IMG/VR virus record: IMGVR_UViG_3300028569_002730
Coordinates: 1-30,668 of that record
Source of the DNA: a virus
DNA: 30,668 nt
Reading direction: 5' to 3' (one strand)
In this document: piece by piece, positions 14 to 28,342 of the stretch
Layout: every line of letters starts with the position of its first letter
How positions within the stretch are numbered: the stretch's first letter is position 1
Translations under genes and position numbers: made by a program
Notes under the pieces: model-generated
The model's input: the letters and a program-made list of their open reading frames with translations, nothing else
The model's database searches: none
What the model was told of the DNA's origin: nothing

Positions 14-679
14 TCAGCTTACTATTATAGTGTGTTTAAATGTTGTATCTGCAATCTTCTGATTTGTCCATTCGGCTCCGTCAGGAGCATTATCATAATC
101 TCTGAACTTTAATGTTCCATTAGCGCTAGCACAACCACTTTTCCCACAATCCCACACTGCTTGTTGAAAAGTGTTCCATAACGTTGAAGAAGTAGCTCTA
201 TCACCAGCATTCGTAGCGTTTTGTATTTCTCCTTCTATTTCCCTGTGTTTGTCGTATGCTATTCCTTCTATGAATTTAGTGAAACAAACTTTACCGCTTC
301 TAATTTCAACGGTTTGAGGAACCCTAAAAATTTGCTTGCTTCTCTTGTTTTTAAATCTGGGGAAGCCACCCAGTTTTTTGTAAAATCTGTTGAAGGCTCC
401 ATCCAAATGCTTCAGTGAGTGTTGCAAAGATTGAGCATTGCACTCGTACAACCAATCCTTATCATCTTGCTTCTTAAGTTCGGTCAGAGCCTTTGCGTCA
501 TCTAGGTAGTTCAAAGACTTTTTAGCCAATTGTTTTTCTTTGGCATTGAGGTAAAATTTGTTTCTGCGATCCAAGAAGTAGTTATACACAAACCGTATGC
601 TGCCAAAGTGCTTGTTGAGGAGTACTTTTTGCTTTTCGGTCGGGAATAGTCTGAATTTGTAGGTGTATTCTTTCTTCAT
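14..679 (-). pseudogene. TnpB (IS200/IS605 OrfB) N-terminal remnant fused to unrelated C-terminus
   Basis: Residues 1 to about 152 look like the N-terminal half of TnpB, the RNA-guided nuclease of IS200/IS605 transposons. There is the opening YKFRLFPTEKQ, the SIRFVYNYFL helix, the FPRFKNKRS basic segment and the HREIEGEI strand typical of the family. From about residue 155 the sequence changes to an unrelated Trp/Asp/Asn-rich tail (CGKSGCASANG, DYDNAPDGAEW). The RuvC catalytic Asp/Glu residues and the zinc ribbon of a full TnpB (roughly 370-420 residues) are absent, so nuclease activity is not expected. The tail resembles the end of a phage structural protein, which is inference. No TnpA transposase or terminal hairpin is visible nearby. 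The start has no clear Shine-Dalgarno site. It could be a decayed insertion, a domesticated DNA-binding fusion, or an assembly chimera. Confidence 0.7.
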
Positions 680-1413: not shown

Positions 1414-2679
1414 ATGCCTAAAGCAATCGATTTAAAGGGTCAAACTTTTGGCGAATTGTTTGTCCTAGAAAAAACAGAAAGCAAGTTTATAGGGAAGAAA
1501 AAACGAACAGCTAAATCTACATGGAAATGCAGATGCTCCTGTGGTAAAGAAATATCTGTATTGGCAACAAATTTAAGACATAAAGGAAAAGGAACAAAAT
1601 CTTGTGGTTGTAAATTTTTAAAATCAAAAAAATATAATTTTAATGATTTAACTGGTAAGAAATTTGGATATTTAGCTGTTATTAAAAGAAGTATTAAGTT
1701 TACAAAAACTCGTGGTGCTATTTGGATCTGTAAATGTGAATGCGGAGAAAGCTGTGAAGTTCCTACAAATTCTCTGACATCTGGAAACAAAATAACTTGT
1801 GGAAATAAAAAAAATCATACGAACAATAGTTTAGATCGTGTATTAAGATGTGGTGAGATACCATTAAGCCACATAAATAATACAAAGCAAAATGCAATAA
1901 AAAGGAATTTATTGTTTACAGTATCGCCTGAATATCTATGGGATTTATTTATAAAACAAGATAGAAGATGTGTTCTTTCTGGTCTGCCTCTTCAGTTCAC
2001 TCCTCATAGAGCAGCCACTTCAACAAGAAGAGACTTTACCAACGCATCCCTAGATAGGATAGACAGTTCGGTAGGATATATAGAAGGAAATGTAAGATGG
2101 GTTCACAAAACATTAAATATAATGAGAATGTCTTCAACCGATAAAGACTTTTTAGAGTACTGCAGACTTTGTTTTTTAAATCAATATTCTGTTGGTAAAA
2201 ACAACCGTCCAACTTTTGATGAATATTTCCTAAACATAGCATTTGATGTCTCGCTCAGATCTGATGATAACAACATCAGACATGGTGCAGTAATAGTCAC
2301 TAATCAAAATCATATTATAGGCACTGGTTATAATGCTACAATTAGAAATTCGGATAAAAATAAAATTCCTTATAATATAAGAGAAAAGAAACGTCTTTGG
2401 ATGATTCACGCCGAAGAAAATGCCATACTAAATAGTAGGGAAAATCCTTTATCTATAGGTGGCGCAAAAATTTATATAACAGGATTACCTTGTGTTAATT
2501 GTCTACAGAGAATTATTAATTTCGGAATTACAGAAGTAATATATGCCGACAGAATAGGATCTGTTACGGAAAACGAAGAGACTATGCAGATGAGAAAAGA
2601 CATTATAAAAATGTCTAAAATAAAAGTTCGTAAAATGAAATTGGACAGTTTTTGGCTAAAAAGAACAATATTAAGTTAA
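1414..2679 (+). CDS. HNH endonuclease fused to dCMP deaminase
   Basis: This 421-residue protein has three parts. Residues about 35-135 hold two Cys-rich repeats (C39, C41, C43, C64, C66; C106, C108, C110, C129), of the kind found in front of phage HNH and AP2-type homing endonucleases. Residues about 180-250 hold an HNH-like nuclease core: C186, then SLDRIDS at 213-219, then GYIEGNVRWV. Residues 265-421 form a complete dCMP deaminase, opening RPTFDEYF, with zinc ligands H332, C360 and C363 and catalytic E334 in the HAE and PCVNC motifs. The deaminase would make dUMP for dTMP synthesis. The nuclease half would recognise and cut DNA. The reading frame is uninterrupted, with AAAGGT upstream of the ATG. 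In known phages the two activities are usually separate genes. The fusion may record an in-frame homing insertion. Confidence 0.85.
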   Translation: MPKAIDLKGQTFGELFVLEKTESKFIGKKKRTAKSTWKCRCSCGKEISVLATNLRHKGKGTKSCGCKFLKSKKYNFNDLTGKKFGYLAVIKRSIKFTKTRGAIWICKCECGESCEVPTNSLTSGNKITCGNKKNHTNNSLDRVLRCGEIPLSHINNTKQNAIKRNLLFTVSPEYLWDLFIKQDRRCVLSGLPLQFTPHRAATSTRRDFTNASLDRIDSSVGYIEGNVRWVHKTLNIMRMSSTDKDFLEYCRLCFLNQYSVGKNNRPTFDEYFLNIAFDVSLRSDDNNIRHGAVIVTNQNHIIGTGYNATIRNSDKNKIPYNIREKKRLWMIHAEENAILNSRENPLSIGGAKIYITGLPCVNCLQRIINFGITEVIYADRIGSVTENEETMQMRKDIIKMSKIKVRKMKLDSFWLKRTILS

Positions 2680-8546: not shown

Positions 8547-9575
8547 ATGCTCAGCTACAAACAATGGAAGCAGTTAAACGAATCAGTTTTCGGTTCATTC
8601 CCCCTAGGCTTATCACAAACCCAATCATTAGGAATATCTTCAAATGTAGAGGGTGCCGAAATTGAAGGTGTTGAACTAGAGGAAGGTAGAAAGAAAAAGA
8701 AAGTTAAAGTTGTTGAAGATGAAACTGGTGATGGAGAGGTGGTAGCGCCAGCCTCTAAGAAAGACGAGCCAAAGTCAGCTAGCTGTGGCTGCTCAAAATG
8801 TGGCAAAAACTGCAAAAATATGCTTTCTGATGAGGATGATACTGATAACGAAGAGGATGAGGATGAGGATGAGGATGAAGAAGATACCGAAGATGAGGAT
8901 GATACTGACGAAGATGAAGAAGAGGATGATACTGACGAAGATGACGAAGATGAAGATGAAGAGGATGATACTGATGAAGATGAAGAGGATGATACAGATG
9001 AAGATGAAGATGAAGATGAAGATAAGGAAAAAGCTCCAAAAATGATGAAAAAGAAGATGAAAAAAGAGGAAAGAGAATGGCTAGGCAGCTTGTTAAATCA
9101 AATTGGAGATCCCACTCAGAAGTTTGACAGCGGGTTCACAGAAGATAATTTTTCTGCTGATCAAGCCGGTCCTGGTGAAGTTGGATATGCTCCATCTGGA
9201 AGAATCGCAGATAATTTCACACAAGTTACAGAAGCTTCTGAAGGATTGACTGCCAAACAAAAGAAACTTCCCAAGGCTTTACAAGATGAAATTCTTAAAA
9301 AGAAAGGCGTAAAGTCTGACAAAGACAGTGACGAAAAATCTGAAGATTCAGAGGAAGTAAGCGACAAGTCTGATGAAGATTCAGATGAATCAAGCGACAA
9401 AAAATCTGATGAAGGTTCAAAAGGAAGTGTAGAAAAGCACTTAAAAGCTTATCTGAAGAAAAATCCTAAAGCTTCTTTCAAAGAAGCAAAAGATTATGTA
9501 AAGAAGCAAAAAGGCATGGAAAAAAGTAAAGTTACTTTAAAAGATTATCTTGTTTGTAAGAAAAAAGCAAAATGA
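8547..9575 (+). CDS. Acidic low-complexity virion cargo candidate with capsid-targeting N-terminus
   Basis: The 342-residue product starts MLSYKQWKQLNESV. This resembles the T4 capsid-targeting sequence, with a predicted gp21-type cut at L10-N11-E12/S13. A Cys cluster (SCGCSKCGKNC, about residues 78-88) is followed by a 65-residue tract of almost only Asp and Glu (95-159), then a basic patch, an ordered segment (EWLGSLLNQIGDPTQKF) and a second Ser/Asp/Lys-rich tract. The C-terminal region is Lys-rich and helical (VEKHLKAYLKKNPKASFKEAKDYVKK). It could be a prohead core or internal protein, where acidic tracts are common, or a DNA mimic that counters host DNA-binding proteins. AGAGGT precedes the ATG. 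The stop overlaps the next start (ATGA). Confidence 0.75.
   Translation: MLSYKQWKQLNESVFGSFPLGLSQTQSLGISSNVEGAEIEGVELEEGRKKKKVKVVEDETGDGEVVAPASKKDEPKSASCGCSKCGKNCKNMLSDEDDTDNEEDEDEDEDEEDTEDEDDTDEDEEEDDTDEDDEDEDEEDDTDEDEEDDTDEDEDEDEDKEKAPKMMKKKMKKEEREWLGSLLNQIGDPTQKFDSGFTEDNFSADQAGPGEVGYAPSGRIADNFTQVTEASEGLTAKQKKLPKALQDEILKKKGVKSDKDSDEKSEDSEEVSDKSDEDSDESSDKKSDEGSKGSVEKHLKAYLKKNPKASFKEAKDYVKKQKGMEKSKVTLKDYLVCKKKAK
8829..9023 (+). repeat. Asp/Glu-coding simple repeat
   Basis: This is a 195-bp stretch built from GAT, GAG and GAA codons with interspersed ACT/ACA, forming imperfect GATGAGGAT and GATGATACTGA repeats. It encodes residues 95-159 of the acidic protein and gives long spurious ORFs in other frames. 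Such tracts can change length by slippage. Confidence 0.85.
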
Positions 9576-10627: not shown

Positions 10628-11149
10628 TTATGATTCTAAGTATGCTCTATCATATCGAAGAGTCAAATCTATAGTAACAACATCACTGCTACTCATATCA
10701 AGATCGCCAAACTCTATGGAGTTTGGCCACACATTTTCTAAAACCCACTTCTCTATGGTCTCCCCACAACCGTCATATAGCTCTAAAAAGCATGTGCCAA
10801 TCTTAAAACCAGATGAACTAGGCTTCCAAGTAGATAAAGTTGATGTAACCTCATACGATTTTTTAATCCAGTTCATTACAGGATTAGACTTCTTTTTAAT
10901 ATCATATAAACTTAAATTTATTGGCTTCCAGTCTGGTTTACTTGGAAAGTAAATTGTTTCGTTTAAATGTTGTGCGTCCATTTCTTTGAATGTTAATCCT
11001 GGTCTGCTTCCTTTAAATGGAGGGAGACAAGGGCTGCCTTCCGCAGAAACATTTTCTATTTTGAAAATCCATCTATTTTTGCGTTTAAAACAAACTTTTG
11101 GATCATTGAGTGCTCCGTCTCCATAATCCCATCCCATTGGTCTTGCCAT
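10628..11149 (-). CDS. 19: gp19-like tail tube protein, paralog B
   Basis: The 173-residue product belongs to the gp19 tail-tube family (T4 gp19 is 163 residues), which stacks as rings to form the inner tail tube. Shared marks are FKRKNRWIFKIENV at the start, LYDIKKKSNPVMNWIKKSY in the middle, LELYDGCGETIEKWVL and WPNSIEFGDLDMSSSDVVTIDLTLRYDRA. Each has a counterpart in the paralog 85 nt upstream. There is no Shine-Dalgarno site: ACTAAATAATATT abuts the ATG. A terminator lies between the two copies, so this gene may need its own start of transcription. One copy is presumably the main tube and the other a tube-end or baseplate-proximal variant. Confidence 0.85.
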   Translation of the reverse strand: MARPMGWDYGDGALNDPKVCFKRKNRWIFKIENVSAEGSPCLPPFKGSRPGLTFKEMDAQHLNETIYFPSKPDWKPINLSLYDIKKKSNPVMNWIKKSYEVTSTLSTWKPSSSGFKIGTCFLELYDGCGETIEKWVLENVWPNSIEFGDLDMSSSDVVTIDLTLRYDRAYLES

Positions 11150-11174
11150 AATATTATTTAGTATAAATATAAAA

Positions 11175-11208
11175 AAAAATGCAAGATTGCGAACAATCTT
11201 GCATTTTT
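11175..11208 (-). terminator. Terminator between the two tail tube genes
   Basis: A 15-bp stem (11175-11189 with 11194-11208) closed by a CGAA loop is flanked by A/T runs. On the minus strand it is followed by T-rich sequence (complement of the A-run at 11171-11179), placing it as the terminator of paralog A. It could also act on the plus strand. Confidence 0.75.
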
Positions 11209-11233
11209 ATTTTTATTAATTTTTTAAAATTAT

Positions 11234-11878
11234 TTATTTGCATCCCTTGCAGCCGCACGGAGCAAACGCCTTGACACATCCACCAGCTGATTCCTTTGGG
11301 TTATATTGAACCTCGGAATATCTAAGAGTTACTTCTACTGTAGCCTCATCACTACTAGCGTAATCAAGTTCTCCAAAACTAATAGATTGTGGCCAAACAT
11401 GCCCAAGAACCCAAGTTTCTAATACATCTCCACAACCATCATACATGTTAAGCACAGCGGTACCAGCATAACCCGCCTCACTACCAGTGGTACTACTTCC
11501 TCCATTACCAGTCAAAGTAGCACCTTTGTCTCCTCTAATTGAGGATTGATGTAATCCTGTGTTGTTATGAAAAGCATAAACTGTGCTTAACCATTTATAA
11601 AGATTGGTTATATCGTTTTTTCCTTCTCCACCTTTTTCTAAAACATCATAAAAGGTCACTGAAGTTGTTTGCCAAGCCGCCTTTCCTGGTATCCACATCT
11701 TTCCATGTAAATAATTTATTTCAGTCTCATCTATATCCAATTGAGGTCTATTTGCAACCTTAACTATAGTATCAGGAATATCACCGCAAGAAGTCTGCAT
11801 AGCAAATGTCCATCTATATTTTCTTTTGAATATAGTCTTTGGTCCTGCAAGAGTTCCAAGCCCCATGTCTTTAGCCAT
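11234..11878 (-). CDS. 19: gp19-like tail tube protein, paralog A, with Cys-rich tail
   Basis: The 214-residue product has the same gp19 core as paralog B: FKRKYRWTFAMQT, VTFYDVLEKG, NMYDGCGDVLETWVLGHVWPQSISFGELDYASSD and VEVTLRYSEV. It differs by a Gly/Ser/Thr-rich insertion of roughly 35 residues before the NMYDGCG motif and by a C-terminal extension ending CGCKGCK. AAGGAGAA lies just before the ATG, and the gene follows the sheath gene by 29 nt. This is the normal T4 order (18 then 19), so it is the likelier main tail tube. The insertion would probably face the tube lumen or the sheath. Confidence 0.88.
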   Translation of the reverse strand: MAKDMGLGTLAGPKTIFKRKYRWTFAMQTSCGDIPDTIVKVANRPQLDIDETEINYLHGKMWIPGKAAWQTTSVTFYDVLEKGGEGKNDITNLYKWLSTVYAFHNNTGLHQSSIRGDKGATLTGNGGSSTTGSEAGYAGTAVLNMYDGCGDVLETWVLGHVWPQSISFGELDYASSDEATVEVTLRYSEVQYNPKESAGGCVKAFAPCGCKGCK

Positions 11879-11907
11879 TATTAAATTCTCCTTTTATCTT
11901 AAAAATA

Positions 11908-14319
11908 TCATGCTGTCTCAGCAAAACTTCCAGTTCTATGTATACTGAATTCAAGGAATATAAATTCTGCTGCACGTACAGGTTGTATTCCTATTCTTGC
12001 TCTAAATTCATTTCTATCAATAACATCGGGTGTATTAAGTTCAGCATCAGATTTAATTATATAATCTGTTATACCTCTGCCAACCTTAATAGTATCCAAT
12101 ATTCCTGAAGCTATAATTCCAAATCTTTGTCTAAATATATCGTCATTTGGTTCAAACAGAAGAGATCTACTTGCGATTCTCAATCTTTTTTCAACTGTAA
12201 GCATTAATCTTCTTACATTTACTCTATCGAGAGCAGTTGGTTTTCTCTGAAGTGTTTTCTGACCAAATATTACGAATCCACCAACATCAACAAATTGAAC
12301 AATTGGATTTACGCAATTTCTGTTGCCATACATCAGATCTCTTTCTTCTAATGTTGGGCGATCATAAACATCTAATATATTTGAAACAGTTCCTCTGTTT
12401 AGTCCAGCAGGAGCAAACCAGGGAGCAGACAAGCTGTCCGATTGAGCTATTGTTGCCATTACAGCACCACTTGGTGGAGCCCAAACGTCAATTAGATTGA
12501 ATGAATCTCTAACCTTAACCCATGGCCAGTATAGTGCAGCAAAATCACTATCAAATCTATCATTGTTTAAAGGATGTGTTCCATTTTGCCATTGGACAAC
12601 TTCTTTGACTGTCAATCCAAAAGGAGGATCAATTATAGCCATGCAGTCCATTCTCACGTTCTGACATAGATCTATGAGTGCTCTAACAACAAATGTGCTG
12701 CTATGACCAGGAACCGCAATTAGATCAATATCAATTTGCTCTGGCTCACTAAGAGAATAAATTCCAGTGTAACCCAAGGCGCTACCTATGATTAGATCGT
12801 CCTGCTTTTCTGGATCTGAAGGTATGCCGTCAGAACCTCCAGATAATAAGTAAGCGCCGCTTAGAGGTGAATATGTCGTTGAATCAAGTGGTGGAGAGCT
12901 TATATCTGTAGCATCCATAACTCGGACATAGTCAGAAACTTGAGCTAAGTATGATTCAACATAGTATCTACTTGCTGGATCCTTGGTCAAATTGCCCCAA
13001 GATTCTACTTGAACTCCATTACTATAAACTTCCATTGTGAAGTTATTTTCATAAGAATTGTTTGTAATCTTAACTTGTGTTCTGTTGCCTTCAATGCCTG
13101 GAGAATCAGCATAAACTGTAAATGTTACCTGACTCATTCCTACATTGTCTGATCCTACAATAATTCCGCCGATATCAGAGTCAGAATTAGATATACCACC
13201 GGTAACAGAGACGGCACTTGATTGAACTGGGCTATCACCCGTAGCGGTTGATGTGCTCATACCGAACACTTCTATTGCAACACCAACAGCCTTAACTCTT
13301 AGTCTGGCATCTCTTCCATAATGCTCAGTCCTAAAAGAAAGATAGTTTTTGCTCTCAAGCGTTTTTGATTCTGCTACCCAACCACCGGGCAATTCACCAA
13401 GATTATCTGCTTTTTGGCTGTTTATTGAGAGTATGATATCATCTAAAGTCACATCAGAAGCTCCATCAAACTCAGAAAGATCGATTACTTGAACTACATT
13501 ATCAATCAAAGCACTATCTGTTCCGTCTAAAACTATCTGAATATTTAGTCCAGCCATTCCTTCGAAATTAAAAATTCCGTCTTCAGCCTCATCTGGTGTT
13601 CCGCTATATCCATAGTTTGATGCAACAACTTCTGCTTGAGTCATACCAACACCAAGACCAGTAACAGCATTTTCGCCATATATTGAATCTTTAACAGAAA
13701 CTAGTTCTAGACTTGAGCTAGGACCATAAGCCCATACTGTTTTTACACCTATATAAGAATCTGATTCAACCTGGCGAGCAAAGAAAATTATTCCATCATT
13801 AACAGTATCTAGCTGATCGTTCAAAGCATTTGCTAATTCATTAGCACTATAATCACCGCTTGCAACAACAAGAGTCTTTGATGAAAGAACTGTGTTGAGT
13901 CTCCATCTGAAGAAAGAATCCTTTGCGAAAGTGTAGGTATCTGGTAGTTTTGAAATTGCTTCAACAACAGAGCCAGCACTTGGAACATCAACATAAGCAG
14001 ACTCTGCTCTTTCGTTGCTAACAGCTTCTTCGTCTGCAACTCTTACTATGTAAAGTTCATTTGCTGCATTTAAATATTGCTCTGCGGCATAAATTAAGAA
14101 GGGATCACTAACATCAGGATGAGGATAGCCAAAAACTGTGTTGAGTTGTCTTCTAGTAGAAATTAGTGTTGGGGTATTAATTGGACCCTTACTGGCGAAT
14201 CCCACCAATGCACCTCTATGAAAGGATTGGTTGGGAGCTATAAAGCTCAAATCCTTCTCAGCTATTCTAACACTTGGACTTATTGTATTGGAAGGTGGAA
14301 ATCCCCTTAAAATTGCCAT
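11908..14319 (-). CDS. 18: gp18, contractile tail sheath protein
   Basis: The 803-residue product is the T4-type tail sheath (T4 gp18 is 659 residues), which polymerises around the tail tube and contracts on infection. The N-terminus (SPSVRIAEKDLSFIAPNQSFHRGALVGFASKGP) and the C-terminal core (NPIVQFVDVGGFVIFGQKTL; LDRVNVRRLMLTVEKRL; FEPNDDIFRQRFG; EFRARIGIQPVRAAEFIFLEF) are typical. The roughly 140 extra residues lie in the middle, in Ser/Asp/Gly-rich beta-type domains that are probably exposed on the tail surface. GGGAG precedes the ATG. It sits between a 65-residue gene and gp19 paralog A in one minus-strand operon. Confidence 0.95.
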   Translation of the reverse strand: MAILRGFPPSNTISPSVRIAEKDLSFIAPNQSFHRGALVGFASKGPINTPTLISTRRQLNTVFGYPHPDVSDPFLIYAAEQYLNAANELYIVRVADEEAVSNERAESAYVDVPSAGSVVEAISKLPDTYTFAKDSFFRWRLNTVLSSKTLVVASGDYSANELANALNDQLDTVNDGIIFFARQVESDSYIGVKTVWAYGPSSSLELVSVKDSIYGENAVTGLGVGMTQAEVVASNYGYSGTPDEAEDGIFNFEGMAGLNIQIVLDGTDSALIDNVVQVIDLSEFDGASDVTLDDIILSINSQKADNLGELPGGWVAESKTLESKNYLSFRTEHYGRDARLRVKAVGVAIEVFGMSTSTATGDSPVQSSAVSVTGGISNSDSDIGGIIVGSDNVGMSQVTFTVYADSPGIEGNRTQVKITNNSYENNFTMEVYSNGVQVESWGNLTKDPASRYYVESYLAQVSDYVRVMDATDISSPPLDSTTYSPLSGAYLLSGGSDGIPSDPEKQDDLIIGSALGYTGIYSLSEPEQIDIDLIAVPGHSSTFVVRALIDLCQNVRMDCMAIIDPPFGLTVKEVVQWQNGTHPLNNDRFDSDFAALYWPWVKVRDSFNLIDVWAPPSGAVMATIAQSDSLSAPWFAPAGLNRGTVSNILDVYDRPTLEERDLMYGNRNCVNPIVQFVDVGGFVIFGQKTLQRKPTALDRVNVRRLMLTVEKRLRIASRSLLFEPNDDIFRQRFGIIASGILDTIKVGRGITDYIIKSDAELNTPDVIDRNEFRARIGIQPVRAAEFIFLEFSIHRTGSFAETA

Positions 14320-22323: not shown

Positions 22324-23190
22324 ATGAGCAATATTTTAGAAATCCCCAAACCTTCTCAAGATGTAAATTGTCAATCTTCGGCTCCTTGTGGGTCAAATTT
22401 GGGTCCAACAGACCCGTTAGTTAAGATATCGCCAAGAAGAAACAGGGAAAAAGTAAGAGAACAGATAAAAGATTATGTTCTTTTGATGTTGGGAGCACCT
22501 GTAGTAAGTATTGAATTAGACCAACAGCAACTTGATGGAGCTGTTGATTTCGCTCTTCAAATATTTGAGGATTACGCTCCCAGAGAATATTACCAGTGGT
22601 ATGTTTTCAATACAGTGCCAGGGCAAACAATATATCAAATGCCTAATGACATAGGTATGGTGAGAGAAGTTGCCTATAAAGAAACAGCCCAATACGCTTT
22701 CAGTGCATCGGATTTAGGAGGTGTTATACCCCTTGAATATATGGGCGCTGGAGCATACGGAAGCATCGCCGGTGGAATTAATCCACAGACTCCTGTTTGG
22801 GGCAAAATGAATGAATGGATGTTATACAAGCAGTATGAAGACACATACAATAGAATGGCGAGTCAACAAGGAGGTTGGGAGTTTATTGGAGGATATGGCT
22901 CTATAAAACTTTACCCAGTTCCTTATAAGTCCCACCTAGTGGCTGTTCATTATTTACAAAAAAATACAGATTTCAAACAAGTAACACAAGCAATGCAAGA
23001 GGGCTCTCTTGCTTTTGCGAAAATAATGTTGGGAAGAATTCGTTCCAAGATAACAAATCCCCCTGGACCAAATGGTGGAGTTCAGCTCGACGGTCAGCAA
23101 ATACTTCAAGAAGGATTACAGGATAAGAAAGATTGGGAAGAAAGATTGATAAATAGATTCGGAGATCTTCCACAAATTAAGATGGGCTAA
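22324..23190 (+). CDS. 13: gp13, neck protein
   Basis: The 288-residue product matches T4-type gp13, which with gp14 forms the neck that closes the DNA-filled head. Typical segments are the N-terminal helix KVREQIKDYVLLMLGAP with VVSIELDQQQLDGAVD, the FEDYAPREYYQWY stretch, PGQTIYQMPNDIG, and the C-terminal MLGRIRSKITNPPGPNGGVQLDG. In T4 genes 13, 14 and 15 are contiguous and co-oriented. Here gp13 is on the opposite strand, with over 5 kb separating it from gp14. No Shine-Dalgarno site is present; TATATATAATAT abuts the ATG. Confidence 0.9.
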   Translation: MSNILEIPKPSQDVNCQSSAPCGSNLGPTDPLVKISPRRNREKVREQIKDYVLLMLGAPVVSIELDQQQLDGAVDFALQIFEDYAPREYYQWYVFNTVPGQTIYQMPNDIGMVREVAYKETAQYAFSASDLGGVIPLEYMGAGAYGSIAGGINPQTPVWGKMNEWMLYKQYEDTYNRMASQQGGWEFIGGYGSIKLYPVPYKSHLVAVHYLQKNTDFKQVTQAMQEGSLAFAKIMLGRIRSKITNPPGPNGGVQLDGQQILQEGLQDKKDWEERLINRFGDLPQIKMG

Positions 23191-26388: not shown

Positions 26389-27414
26389 ATGTCCGAAGAA
26401 GTTTACCGCCCCAGGAAACCAGAAGAAAATTTAGAAAGATTAAACGCTGCTGAGTCCATGAGGCACGCCGCAAGCGGTGAAGCAAAAAAACCAGAAGGAC
26501 AAGCCCCTTTTGAAATTAAAGGAAATGTTCCTCCTGAATTTTTAAATGCTATGGGGATGCAAAACGTCCCCGCTAACTCGACAACAAATCCAAATTCAGA
26601 CAGACAGCCGGTTAGTGGAAACCTAAAAGATCTTCTTGAAGACTTAAGACAATCAACATCTGTTTACGAAGAGATAGAGCTTCCTTCTAAAGGTGTTTTT
26701 TATGATGGTGAAAATGGTCCTTCAGACGGAATAATTCACATAAGACCAATGACCGGAGAAGAGGAGCAAATTCTTGCGACTCCAAGGTTTGTCAGAAAAG
26801 GACAAGCCCTAAATATGATATTCTCCAGATGCATAAAAGAAAAAATTAAGCCAGAAGATCTTTTGACTGTTGATAGAACATACCTGTTAATCTACCTCAG
26901 AGGCATATCCTATTCCCCATTATACGAAGTAGAGATAAAGTGCCCAGAATGCGAAAGAAAGTTCTCTACAGAAATCGACTTAAATACTTTGATGGTTGAG
27001 TCTTGCCCAGAAGGATACGGTCCATCACTATCAGGTGTTTTACCAACTTCTAAATATTCTTTCACATATAGGTTGTCTAAGGGTAAAGATGAAACAGACA
27101 TTCAAGATCACAGAGAAAGAAGAATTAAGAATTTCGGAGATAATTCAACAGATGACACTTTGATATACAGAACATCTATTTTAGTTGATGAGATCCAAGG
27201 AATAACAGACAAGAGAGATCTTCAAACATTAATTAAAAATCTCCCAATATCAGACGTTTCTCACATTAGAAATTGTGTTAACGAGCCTCCATTTGGCGTA
27301 GATACAAAAGTTGATATGGCTTGTCCAAGTTGCCTGCAGGAATTTGACGTAGACCTCCCGCTTGAAGCAAATTTTTTCTTCCCGCGTCGGAGGAGGGAGA
27401 AAACACAAGCTTAA
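26389..27414 (+). CDS. 26: gp26-type baseplate hub protein
   Basis: The 341-residue product matches the T4 gp26-like family (T4 gp26 is 208 residues). Marks are VYEEIELPSKGVFYD, the acidic MTGEEEQILATPRFVRKGQAL stretch, LLTVDRTYLLIYLRGISYSPLYEV and a four-Cys zinc ribbon (C185-x-x-C188 and C312-x-x-C315). The first 95 residues are extra and disordered (Pro/Asn/Glu-rich). The family helps assemble the baseplate hub and tail and resembles tail assembly chaperones of other phages. GAAAGG lies before the ATG. Near the 3' end is A-AAT-TTT, a canonical -1 slippery heptamer, in the correct frame to enter the next ORF (27417-27596), which lacks an ATG. Confidence 0.8.
   Translation: MSEEVYRPRKPEENLERLNAAESMRHAASGEAKKPEGQAPFEIKGNVPPEFLNAMGMQNVPANSTTNPNSDRQPVSGNLKDLLEDLRQSTSVYEEIELPSKGVFYDGENGPSDGIIHIRPMTGEEEQILATPRFVRKGQALNMIFSRCIKEKIKPEDLLTVDRTYLLIYLRGISYSPLYEVEIKCPECERKFSTEIDLNTLMVESCPEGYGPSLSGVLPTSKYSFTYRLSKGKDETDIQDHRERRIKNFGDNSTDDTLIYRTSILVDEIQGITDKRDLQTLIKNLPISDVSHIRNCVNEPPFGVDTKVDMACPSCLQEFDVDLPLEANFFFPRRRREKTQA
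27369..27375 (+). promoter_or_regulatory. Candidate -1 frameshift site A-AAT-TTT
   Basis: In the gp26-type frame the codons are GCA AAT TTT TTC, so A-AAT-TTT fits X-XXY-YYZ exactly. A -1 slip enters a frame that has its last upstream stop at 27363-27365 and stays open to 27596. The original frame ends at TAA 27412-27414. Confidence 0.5.
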
Positions 27415-27421
27415 GCTTGTG
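27404..27421 (+). repeat. 18-bp perfect palindrome over the gp26-type stop codon
   Basis: CACAAGCTTAAGCTTGTG contains the stop codon (27412-27414) and the TTG that could start the next ORF. As RNA it can fold into a 7-bp stem with a UUAA loop. The AGGAGGGAG just before it (27391-27399) is a strong Shine-Dalgarno-like sequence. Confidence 0.7.
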
Positions 27422-27596
27422 GGAAAACCTGGCAGAAGAAATTTTCTTCTTTCAATATCATATGCGACAAAGCATGAAAGATACTATGATCTTGCCTATT
27501 AACCTTAGAAAATGGTTAATACAAAGATACATACAACAAAAAGAAAAAGAAAACGAACAGATGGAATCAGAAAGAAGAAAAATAAGAAGGAAATAA
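27417..27596 (+). CDS. 59-residue tail-chaperone-like ORF without an ATG (frameshift extension or TTG start)
   Basis: Read from TTG 27417 the product is MWENLAEEIFFFQYHMRQSM, then KDTMILPINLRKWLIQRYIQ and a charged Glu/Lys tail. The W-E-x-L, H-M-R-x-S and L-P-x-x-x-R-x-W-x-I-x-R spacing looks like the small C-terminal partner of phage tail-assembly chaperones, which are often made by -1 frameshifting. No ATG lies before the conserved part, and the Shine-Dalgarno site is about 20 nt away. If the slip at 27369-27375 is used, it becomes a gp26-type fusion; otherwise it starts at TTG. The stop is 2 nt before the next ATG. Confidence 0.6.
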   Translation: MWENLAEEIFFFQYHMRQSMKDTMILPINLRKWLIQRYIQQKEKENEQMESERRKIRRK

Positions 27597-27598
27597 AA

Positions 27599-28342
27599 AT
27601 GCCTACGAAAGAAAGATTTCAAAACCCAAATTGTGGCGATGATGTAAACTTAAGGCTATTTTCATTTAATTCAAATGTAAAAACAAACTTCTATCAAGTA
27701 GATAAAGTTGAAATATTCTTCCTAGATTCAGAAGAAGTCACAGCAGAAAACCCTACCGGAAAAAGATTAGTCCAATCCATAGCGGGAGAAGAAGTATCCA
27801 ACAATGACGAAGGTGAATATGTTTTAACTGTTAATTTAACTAGTCCTTTGTACACAATTGGTAGATACGTTGATGTTTGGCACGTAAAATTTGAAGATGG
27901 ACAACCTTGTGTAGAATCTAGTATTGAAAATTATTTCGAAGTATTTCCAGGTCTTTGGTTTACTTCAACCTCTCCAAGCATATATGATTTTAGCTTTTAT
28001 TTTAAGCCCAACAAAGTAACAAAAGGCAGCAAAAGATACATAATAATAGAAGTTGTCCCTAATGTTCCAAAAAGCGAAGAGCTAGAAAGATACTACAACA
28101 ATCTTGCTATAATATCTAATCTTAAGATTTATATAGAAAGAAATTGTTCTGACTGCCTGCCCACAGAACAAGATTTAAGGTTGGTTGTTGATGGAGAAAG
28201 CGTCTCGTTTAGAGAAAAGAGATTTGGTTACTACCACTTAAACACAACAGAACTAGATGTGGGCATATATGATATTTGGTTTGAATTAAGTTACGCAGAA
28301 AACATATTCATCTCAGATAGAAGTCAACTTCAAATATATTAG
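27599..28342 (+). CDS. Beta-rich structural-type protein
   Basis: The start at 27599 is set by AAGGA upstream; the frame is open for 29 more codons on the 5' side, but these encode only a Lys/Arg-rich string that overlaps the small ORF. The 247-residue product reads MPTKERFQNPNCGDDVNLRLF and continues with strands that repeat at about 90-residue intervals (VDKVEIFFLDS; YTIGRYVDVWHVKFEDG; SNLKIYIERNCSDC; VGIYDIWFELSYAEN). It looks like two or three beta-sandwich domains of a tail or baseplate component. I do not recognise the family, but it follows the gp26-type gene in one operon. Confidence 0.65.
   Translation: MPTKERFQNPNCGDDVNLRLFSFNSNVKTNFYQVDKVEIFFLDSEEVTAENPTGKRLVQSIAGEEVSNNDEGEYVLTVNLTSPLYTIGRYVDVWHVKFEDGQPCVESSIENYFEVFPGLWFTSTSPSIYDFSFYFKPNKVTKGSKRYIIIEVVPNVPKSEELERYYNNLAIISNLKIYIERNCSDCLPTEQDLRLVVDGESVSFREKRFGYYHLNTTELDVGIYDIWFELSYAENIFISDRSQLQIY

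Follow-up and report, generated by a model that had tools for sequence, protein, structure and literature searches.

Tail-assembly chaperones of phages are usually made in two sizes by frameshifting, and their gene typically, though not universally, lies between those of the tail tube and the tape measure. The frameshift class of lambda G/GT has been described (Xu, Hendrix and Duda, 2004), and a 2016 review presented T4 as an exception to tail-chaperone frameshifting (PMC5009743). T4 has two proteins that match PF12322, gp26 (208 aa) and gp51 (249 aa); of the 282 columns of phrog_150, gp26 spans 14-235 and gp51 13-280, and the two families align by hhalign at 99.4%, from which gp51 can be recognized as a gp26-like protein with an additional C-terminal domain. 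As judged from these alignments, the two are paralogues. For the tail chaperones of T4-like phages, poly-T frameshift signals have been published before, to go by the papers that cite Vladimirov, Gautam and Davidson (Virology, 2022) on this subject (PMC10885494; PMC12846349). As cited there, some T4-like phages do not frameshift and encode the short form and the fused long form in a gene each (PMC10885494, citing Vladimirov 2022), and poly-T signals are known in the TAC-N genes of T4-like phages (PMC12846349, citing Vladimirov 2022). An invariant GTTTTT -1 site was reported for the TAC-N/TAC-NC genes of Vandenendeviridae and Andersonviridae (PMC12846349), and cyanophage gp51 was noted to correspond to no more than the C-terminal part of the T4 protein (PMC3037559).

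The gene considered here, from a lineage related to T4, is located in the window, by which is meant the whole stretch of 30,668 nucleotides analysed (IMG/VR virus record IMGVR_UViG_3300028569_002730). As with T4 gp26/gp51, a PF12322/phrog_150 protein would exist in a short form without and a long form with a C-terminal domain, but the two forms are separate paralogous genes in T4, whereas the window has one gene and a predicted slip site. It differs from the TAC-N/TAC-NC genes of Vandenendeviridae and Andersonviridae in belonging to another phage lineage and in having T TTT TTC within an AAT/AGT-TTT-TTC context, and from the lambda G/GT class in encoding a zinc-ribbon gp26-type protein and in not adjoining a recognized tape-measure gene. 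Its features are listed below. It is very likely a tail-assembly chaperone gene of the gp26/gp51 type in which a programmed -1 frameshift takes place at U UUU UUC.

26389..27414, plus strand: gene read in frame 0, encoding the gp26-type short form of 341 aa, with EANFFFPRRRREKTQA and the stop at its end
27369..27375, plus strand: A AAU UUU, the heptamer of the original prediction; overlaps U UUU UUC and is not strictly conserved
27372..27378, plus strand: candidate slippery heptamer U UUU UUC; codons AAT TTT TTC, re-pairing as TTT TTT
27378..27596, plus strand: -1-frame extension, beginning LPASEEGENTSLSLWENLAEEIFFFQYHMRQSMKDTMILPINLRKWLIQRYIQQKEKEN, 72 residues and a stop; open and conserved in 50/50 loci
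27391..27399, plus strand: AGGAGGGAG, purine-rich and dual-coded (RRRE in frame 0, EEGE in frame -1); varies among relatives
27404..27421, plus strand: palindrome CACAAGCTTAAGCTTGTG, 18 nt, forming a 7-bp hairpin whose loop holds the stop codon
27412..27414, plus strand: zero-frame stop TAA, 40 nt past the heptamer start (31-46 nt in relatives)
27599..28342, plus strand: next gene, hypothetical protein of 247 aa, with ATG at 27599 and AAGGA just upstream

The assignment of the ORF at 26389-27414 as a gp26-type gene was borne out by its matches to PF12322 (T4_baseplate; E=1e-18, 68.3 bits against a curated cut-off of 24.5) and phrog_150 (baseplate hub; E=1.8e-22). Its AlphaFold model (pLDDT 76) matches predicted phage baseplate-hub proteins, best that of SP-15 (E=1.3e-19); a fold search of the PDB placed the HK97 chaperone 2ob9_B at rank 19 with a non-significant E of 5.2 (TM 0.50 by target), and sequence searches against solved structures returned nothing relevant. 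The gene lies outside the usual interval between tail tube and tape measure: the tube and sheath genes of the window (10628-14319) are on the opposite strand, and no tape-measure gene was recognized in the window, so that none stands beside the gp26-type gene. In SP-15, LIS04 and immuto, the related gene is placed between tube and tape measure. On the minus strand, 10628-11149 gave a weak match to the T4 gp19 tail tube (E=6.8e-6, below cut-off), and the adjoining 11234-11878 appears by eye to be a second tube gene and has no Pfam match. The gene at 27599..28342 opens directly where the extension has ended; a family search with a longer ORF call in its frame found no family.

Eighty relatives of the gp26-type gene were collected from IMG/VR, giving 81 loci with that of the window, of which 50 constitute a nonredundant set (pairwise nucleotide identity <90%). 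The final codons of the ORF are GCA AAT TTT TTC TTC CCG ... TAA, and the AAATTTTTTC run within them comprises two overlapping in-frame heptamers, A AAT TTT (27369-27375) and T TTT TTC (27372-27378). Of the loci collected with gp26, 81/81 have the latter in frame; searching independently with the extension recovered 80 loci, overlapping the first set, all of which (80/80) have an in-frame TTTTTTC. The original prediction had assigned the slip to A-AAT-TTT, which is indeed present in the right frame; it is, however, retained at only 41 of the 50 nonredundant loci, being replaced by AAGTTTT (5), CAATTTT (3) or GAATTTT (1). Its loss from close relatives that keep the small downstream ORF had been named as evidence that would count against the proposal, and was found for that heptamer at these nine loci, whereas T TTT TTC is never lost. 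The proposed comparison of the slippery site in relatives thus favours a -1 frameshift, at T TTT TTC, and on this conservation U UUU UUC, not A AAU UUU, is to be taken as the slip heptamer.

Codon identity among same-residue pairs is 1.00 at AAT/AGT, TTT and TTC compared to a gene mean of 0.42, so that no other synonymous sites of the gp26-type gene are as well conserved as the three slip codons. As the first two of them are read in frame 0 only, dual coding cannot explain their fixed third bases. The chance of this pattern under each gene's own codon usage is approximately 10^-51, a naive value that ignores shared ancestry and serves as an indication only. In a set of 408 other ORFs (80 aa or longer) from the window and its relatives, an in-frame TTTTTTC within the last 45 nt was found in one, and the heptamer together with a -1 frame open for at least 40 codons past the stop in none (0/408). 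The combination of heptamer and open -1 frame exceeds chance.

Two further claims, that the -1 frame is open across 27366-27596 and that it holds a 59-residue ORF with no ATG ahead of WENLAEEI, were confirmed, TTG 27417 being the only start-like codon (59 aa). At 50/50 nonredundant loci, the frame is open up to the conserved helical domain. The extension is under purifying selection, with dN of 0.007-0.02 against dS of 0.2-0.8 and a dN/dS of about 0.01-0.04 (loci L001-L004); family-wide, third positions hold 49% of its changes. AlphaFold modelled it as three helices (pLDDT 85), with which Foldseek returned no significant match. A Pfam match to Tma16, a eukaryotic ribosome-biogenesis family, was set aside as probably due to the charged helical sequence of the extension; it scored 24.9 bits against a cut-off of 22.7, and 32 of 36 members of its family exceeded the curated cut-off. 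Matches of the family to DUF6760 were below cut-off.

A programmed -1 frameshift remains the best explanation of the invariant heptamer (81/81) and the open -1 frame (50/50). The rival offered by the original prediction, re-initiation at TTG 27417 helped by an SD-like run and the palindrome, would yield a separate 59-aa protein, as would a coupled start at that codon. The window and its closest relatives do have the TTG, and an ATG conserved 5 nt past the gp26 stop in cyanophage-type relatives (26/26) makes a free C-terminal protein plausible there, but the codon aligned with TTG 27417 is CTT, CTC, CTA, ATT, ATC or ACA in many relatives, and at 22 of the 50 loci the stretch from the slip site to the FFF motif contains no ATG, GTG or TTG. 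Re-initiation fails on this lack of conservation; it likewise gives no reason for the invariant AAT/AGT-TTT-TTC codons or for the conservation of the -1 frame upstream of the TTG, and is considered very improbable. Both supposed helpers are present in the window, yet neither is conserved, which speaks against them as functional elements: AGGAGGGAG lies some 20 nt from the TTG and is probably not a functional SD, and the palindrome is intact in L001-L002, near-intact in L003 and broken in L004 and most others.

The arrangement at the heptamer finds parallels in other lineages. T TTT TTC with a -1 extension was also found, at the corresponding position, in RaK2, 121Q, PA5oct, Vibrio 2.275, Atu_ph07, VH7D and Aswh_1, and variants of the heptamer in RAS14 and XacN1 (T TTT TTT) and RHph_Y68 (T TTT TTG); PhiSH19 (Ackermannviridae) has no such heptamer. 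Cyanophages resemble the window in that gp26 is followed by a short 'gp51' in the -1 frame, with an in-frame T TTT TTC located 10 nt ahead of the gp26 stop at 26/26 nonredundant loci, but differ in possessing a conserved ATG for the -1 ORF, which is lacking in the window. As the heptamer and the ATG are both kept at all 26 (within L186-L266), the product of the cyanophage ORF may occur both fused to gp26 and by itself. Relatives of SP-15, Mel-JY01 and immuto (L271-L431; L083-L087, L090) have the extension in the +1 frame, or equally -2, at 82/82 nonredundant loci, the conserved sites being TTT TTT TGG CC in 62 and TTT CTT TGG CC in 12 of these.

These lineages bear on a second alternative, transcriptional slippage at the T6 run, by which some mRNAs would gain a U and so encode the fusion without any shift of the ribosome. 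The six-T homopolymer is indeed present throughout the window family; against this, its length there is exactly six and never more, and its codon phase is fixed, which is what slippage of tandem tRNAs requires. Some sites of the other-frame lineages, moreover, lack a long run (TTT CTT TGG). A six-base run is also short for slippage by RNA polymerase, and this alternative is judged slightly less probable still than re-initiation. Finally, although homopolymer runs are prone to errors, a sequencing or assembly indel that hides a single frame shared by gp26 and the extension is already refuted, its probability being negligible, since the frame relation is identical at 81/81 loci, which come from many metagenomes, and recurs in named isolates.

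The evidence relating the extension to T4 gp51 is indirect. The extension of cyanophages matches the C-terminus of T4 gp51 at 98% (E=1.9e-13), in agreement with the earlier description of cyanophage gp51 (PMC3037559). The extension of the window family matches that of the +1-frame group at 97%, and the +1-frame group matches the distant and cyanophage extensions, again at 97%; controls with shuffled columns were below 1%. Compared directly with the T4 gp51 C-terminus, the window extension gave a non-significant 0.5%, so that the identification depends on the chain of profile matches. Through these intermediates, the view that the extension corresponds to the gp51 C-terminal domain is supported, and the one gene probably encodes two chaperones, a short one resembling gp26 and a long one resembling gp51.

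Under the -1 frameshift proposed here, most ribosomes would remain in frame 0 and stop at 27414, producing the 341-aa gp26-like protein. A fraction would slip by -1 at U UUU UUC (27372-27378), resume at CTT 27378-27380 and read the -1 frame to 27596, giving a product of 402 aa (330+72), the C-terminal helical domain of which would be the equivalent of the T4 gp51 C-terminus. That such a slip supplies a short and a long chaperone from one gene, the latter with a gp51-like C-terminus, is on the sequence evidence held with high confidence. If lambda G/GT is a guide, both forms would jointly chaperone the tape-measure protein and the hub, and be absent from the virion. The sequences show the ORFs, the conserved slip codons, the open and conserved -1 frame, the gp26 homology and the paralogy of gp26 and gp51 in T4, whereas slippage, its efficiency and a function as chaperone are inferred.

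Regarding a stimulatory RNA, folding of 30-120 nt in the 50 relatives and two consensus folds revealed no convincing conserved hairpin downstream of the slip site. The consensus folds had little covariation and hairpin z-scores were weak in short segments; a 120-nt segment including the heptamer was alone in being somewhat more stable than its shuffles (mean z of -1.85). Upstream, no conserved SD stimulator was found among the relatives. Good hairpins do exist in a few individual members, though not across the family. A hairpin some 6 nt past a slip heptamer occupies the textbook position of a stimulator, and one (CGTCGCC-GCAA-GGCGACG) is located there in L060; strong hairpins at this position occur in L059 and L060 only.

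Taken across lineages, it appears likely, if some way from certain, that one homologous chaperone family makes its short and long pair in three ways: by -1 slippage in the window family, cyanophages and several jumbo phages, by +1 or -2 slippage in the relatives of SP-15, Mel-JY01 and immuto, and from two separate genes in T4. Both frameshifts would occur at the same Phe-Phe codons, and if this reading is correct, the direction of frameshifting has switched in evolution while the protein domains were unchanged. Many relatives of the T4 gp26/gp51 genes retain the -1 site, and hence the two genes of T4 look like an alternative to frameshifting. The gp26 genes of many phages, cyanophages and huge phages included, are annotated without a long product, and ORFs designated 'gp51' or hypothetical that follow them may belong to a fusion. 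In the literature consulted, where Vladimirov 2022 is represented by the papers citing it, no account was found of the opposite-frame group or of the uncultured lineage of the window; the window gene and its sister lineages would be natural sites at which to ask why the shift is -1 in one and +1 in another.

Other ORFs of the window were noted in passing. That at 14-679 (minus strand) has a TnpB-type N-terminal HTH (residues 5-43) with no match past it, and is perhaps a truncated or chimeric TnpB close to the contig edge. The 288-aa ORF at 22324-23190 (plus strand) matches the head-tail adaptor phrog_211, limited to 687-962 of 976, and the 342-aa ORF at 8547-9575 (plus strand) contains a long low-complexity stretch of Asp/Glu. 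The 421-aa product of 1414-2679 (plus strand) has a C-terminal dCMP deaminase domain (E=1e-19), and its N-terminal half appears by eye to combine zinc ribbons with an HNH endonuclease, an unusual fusion.
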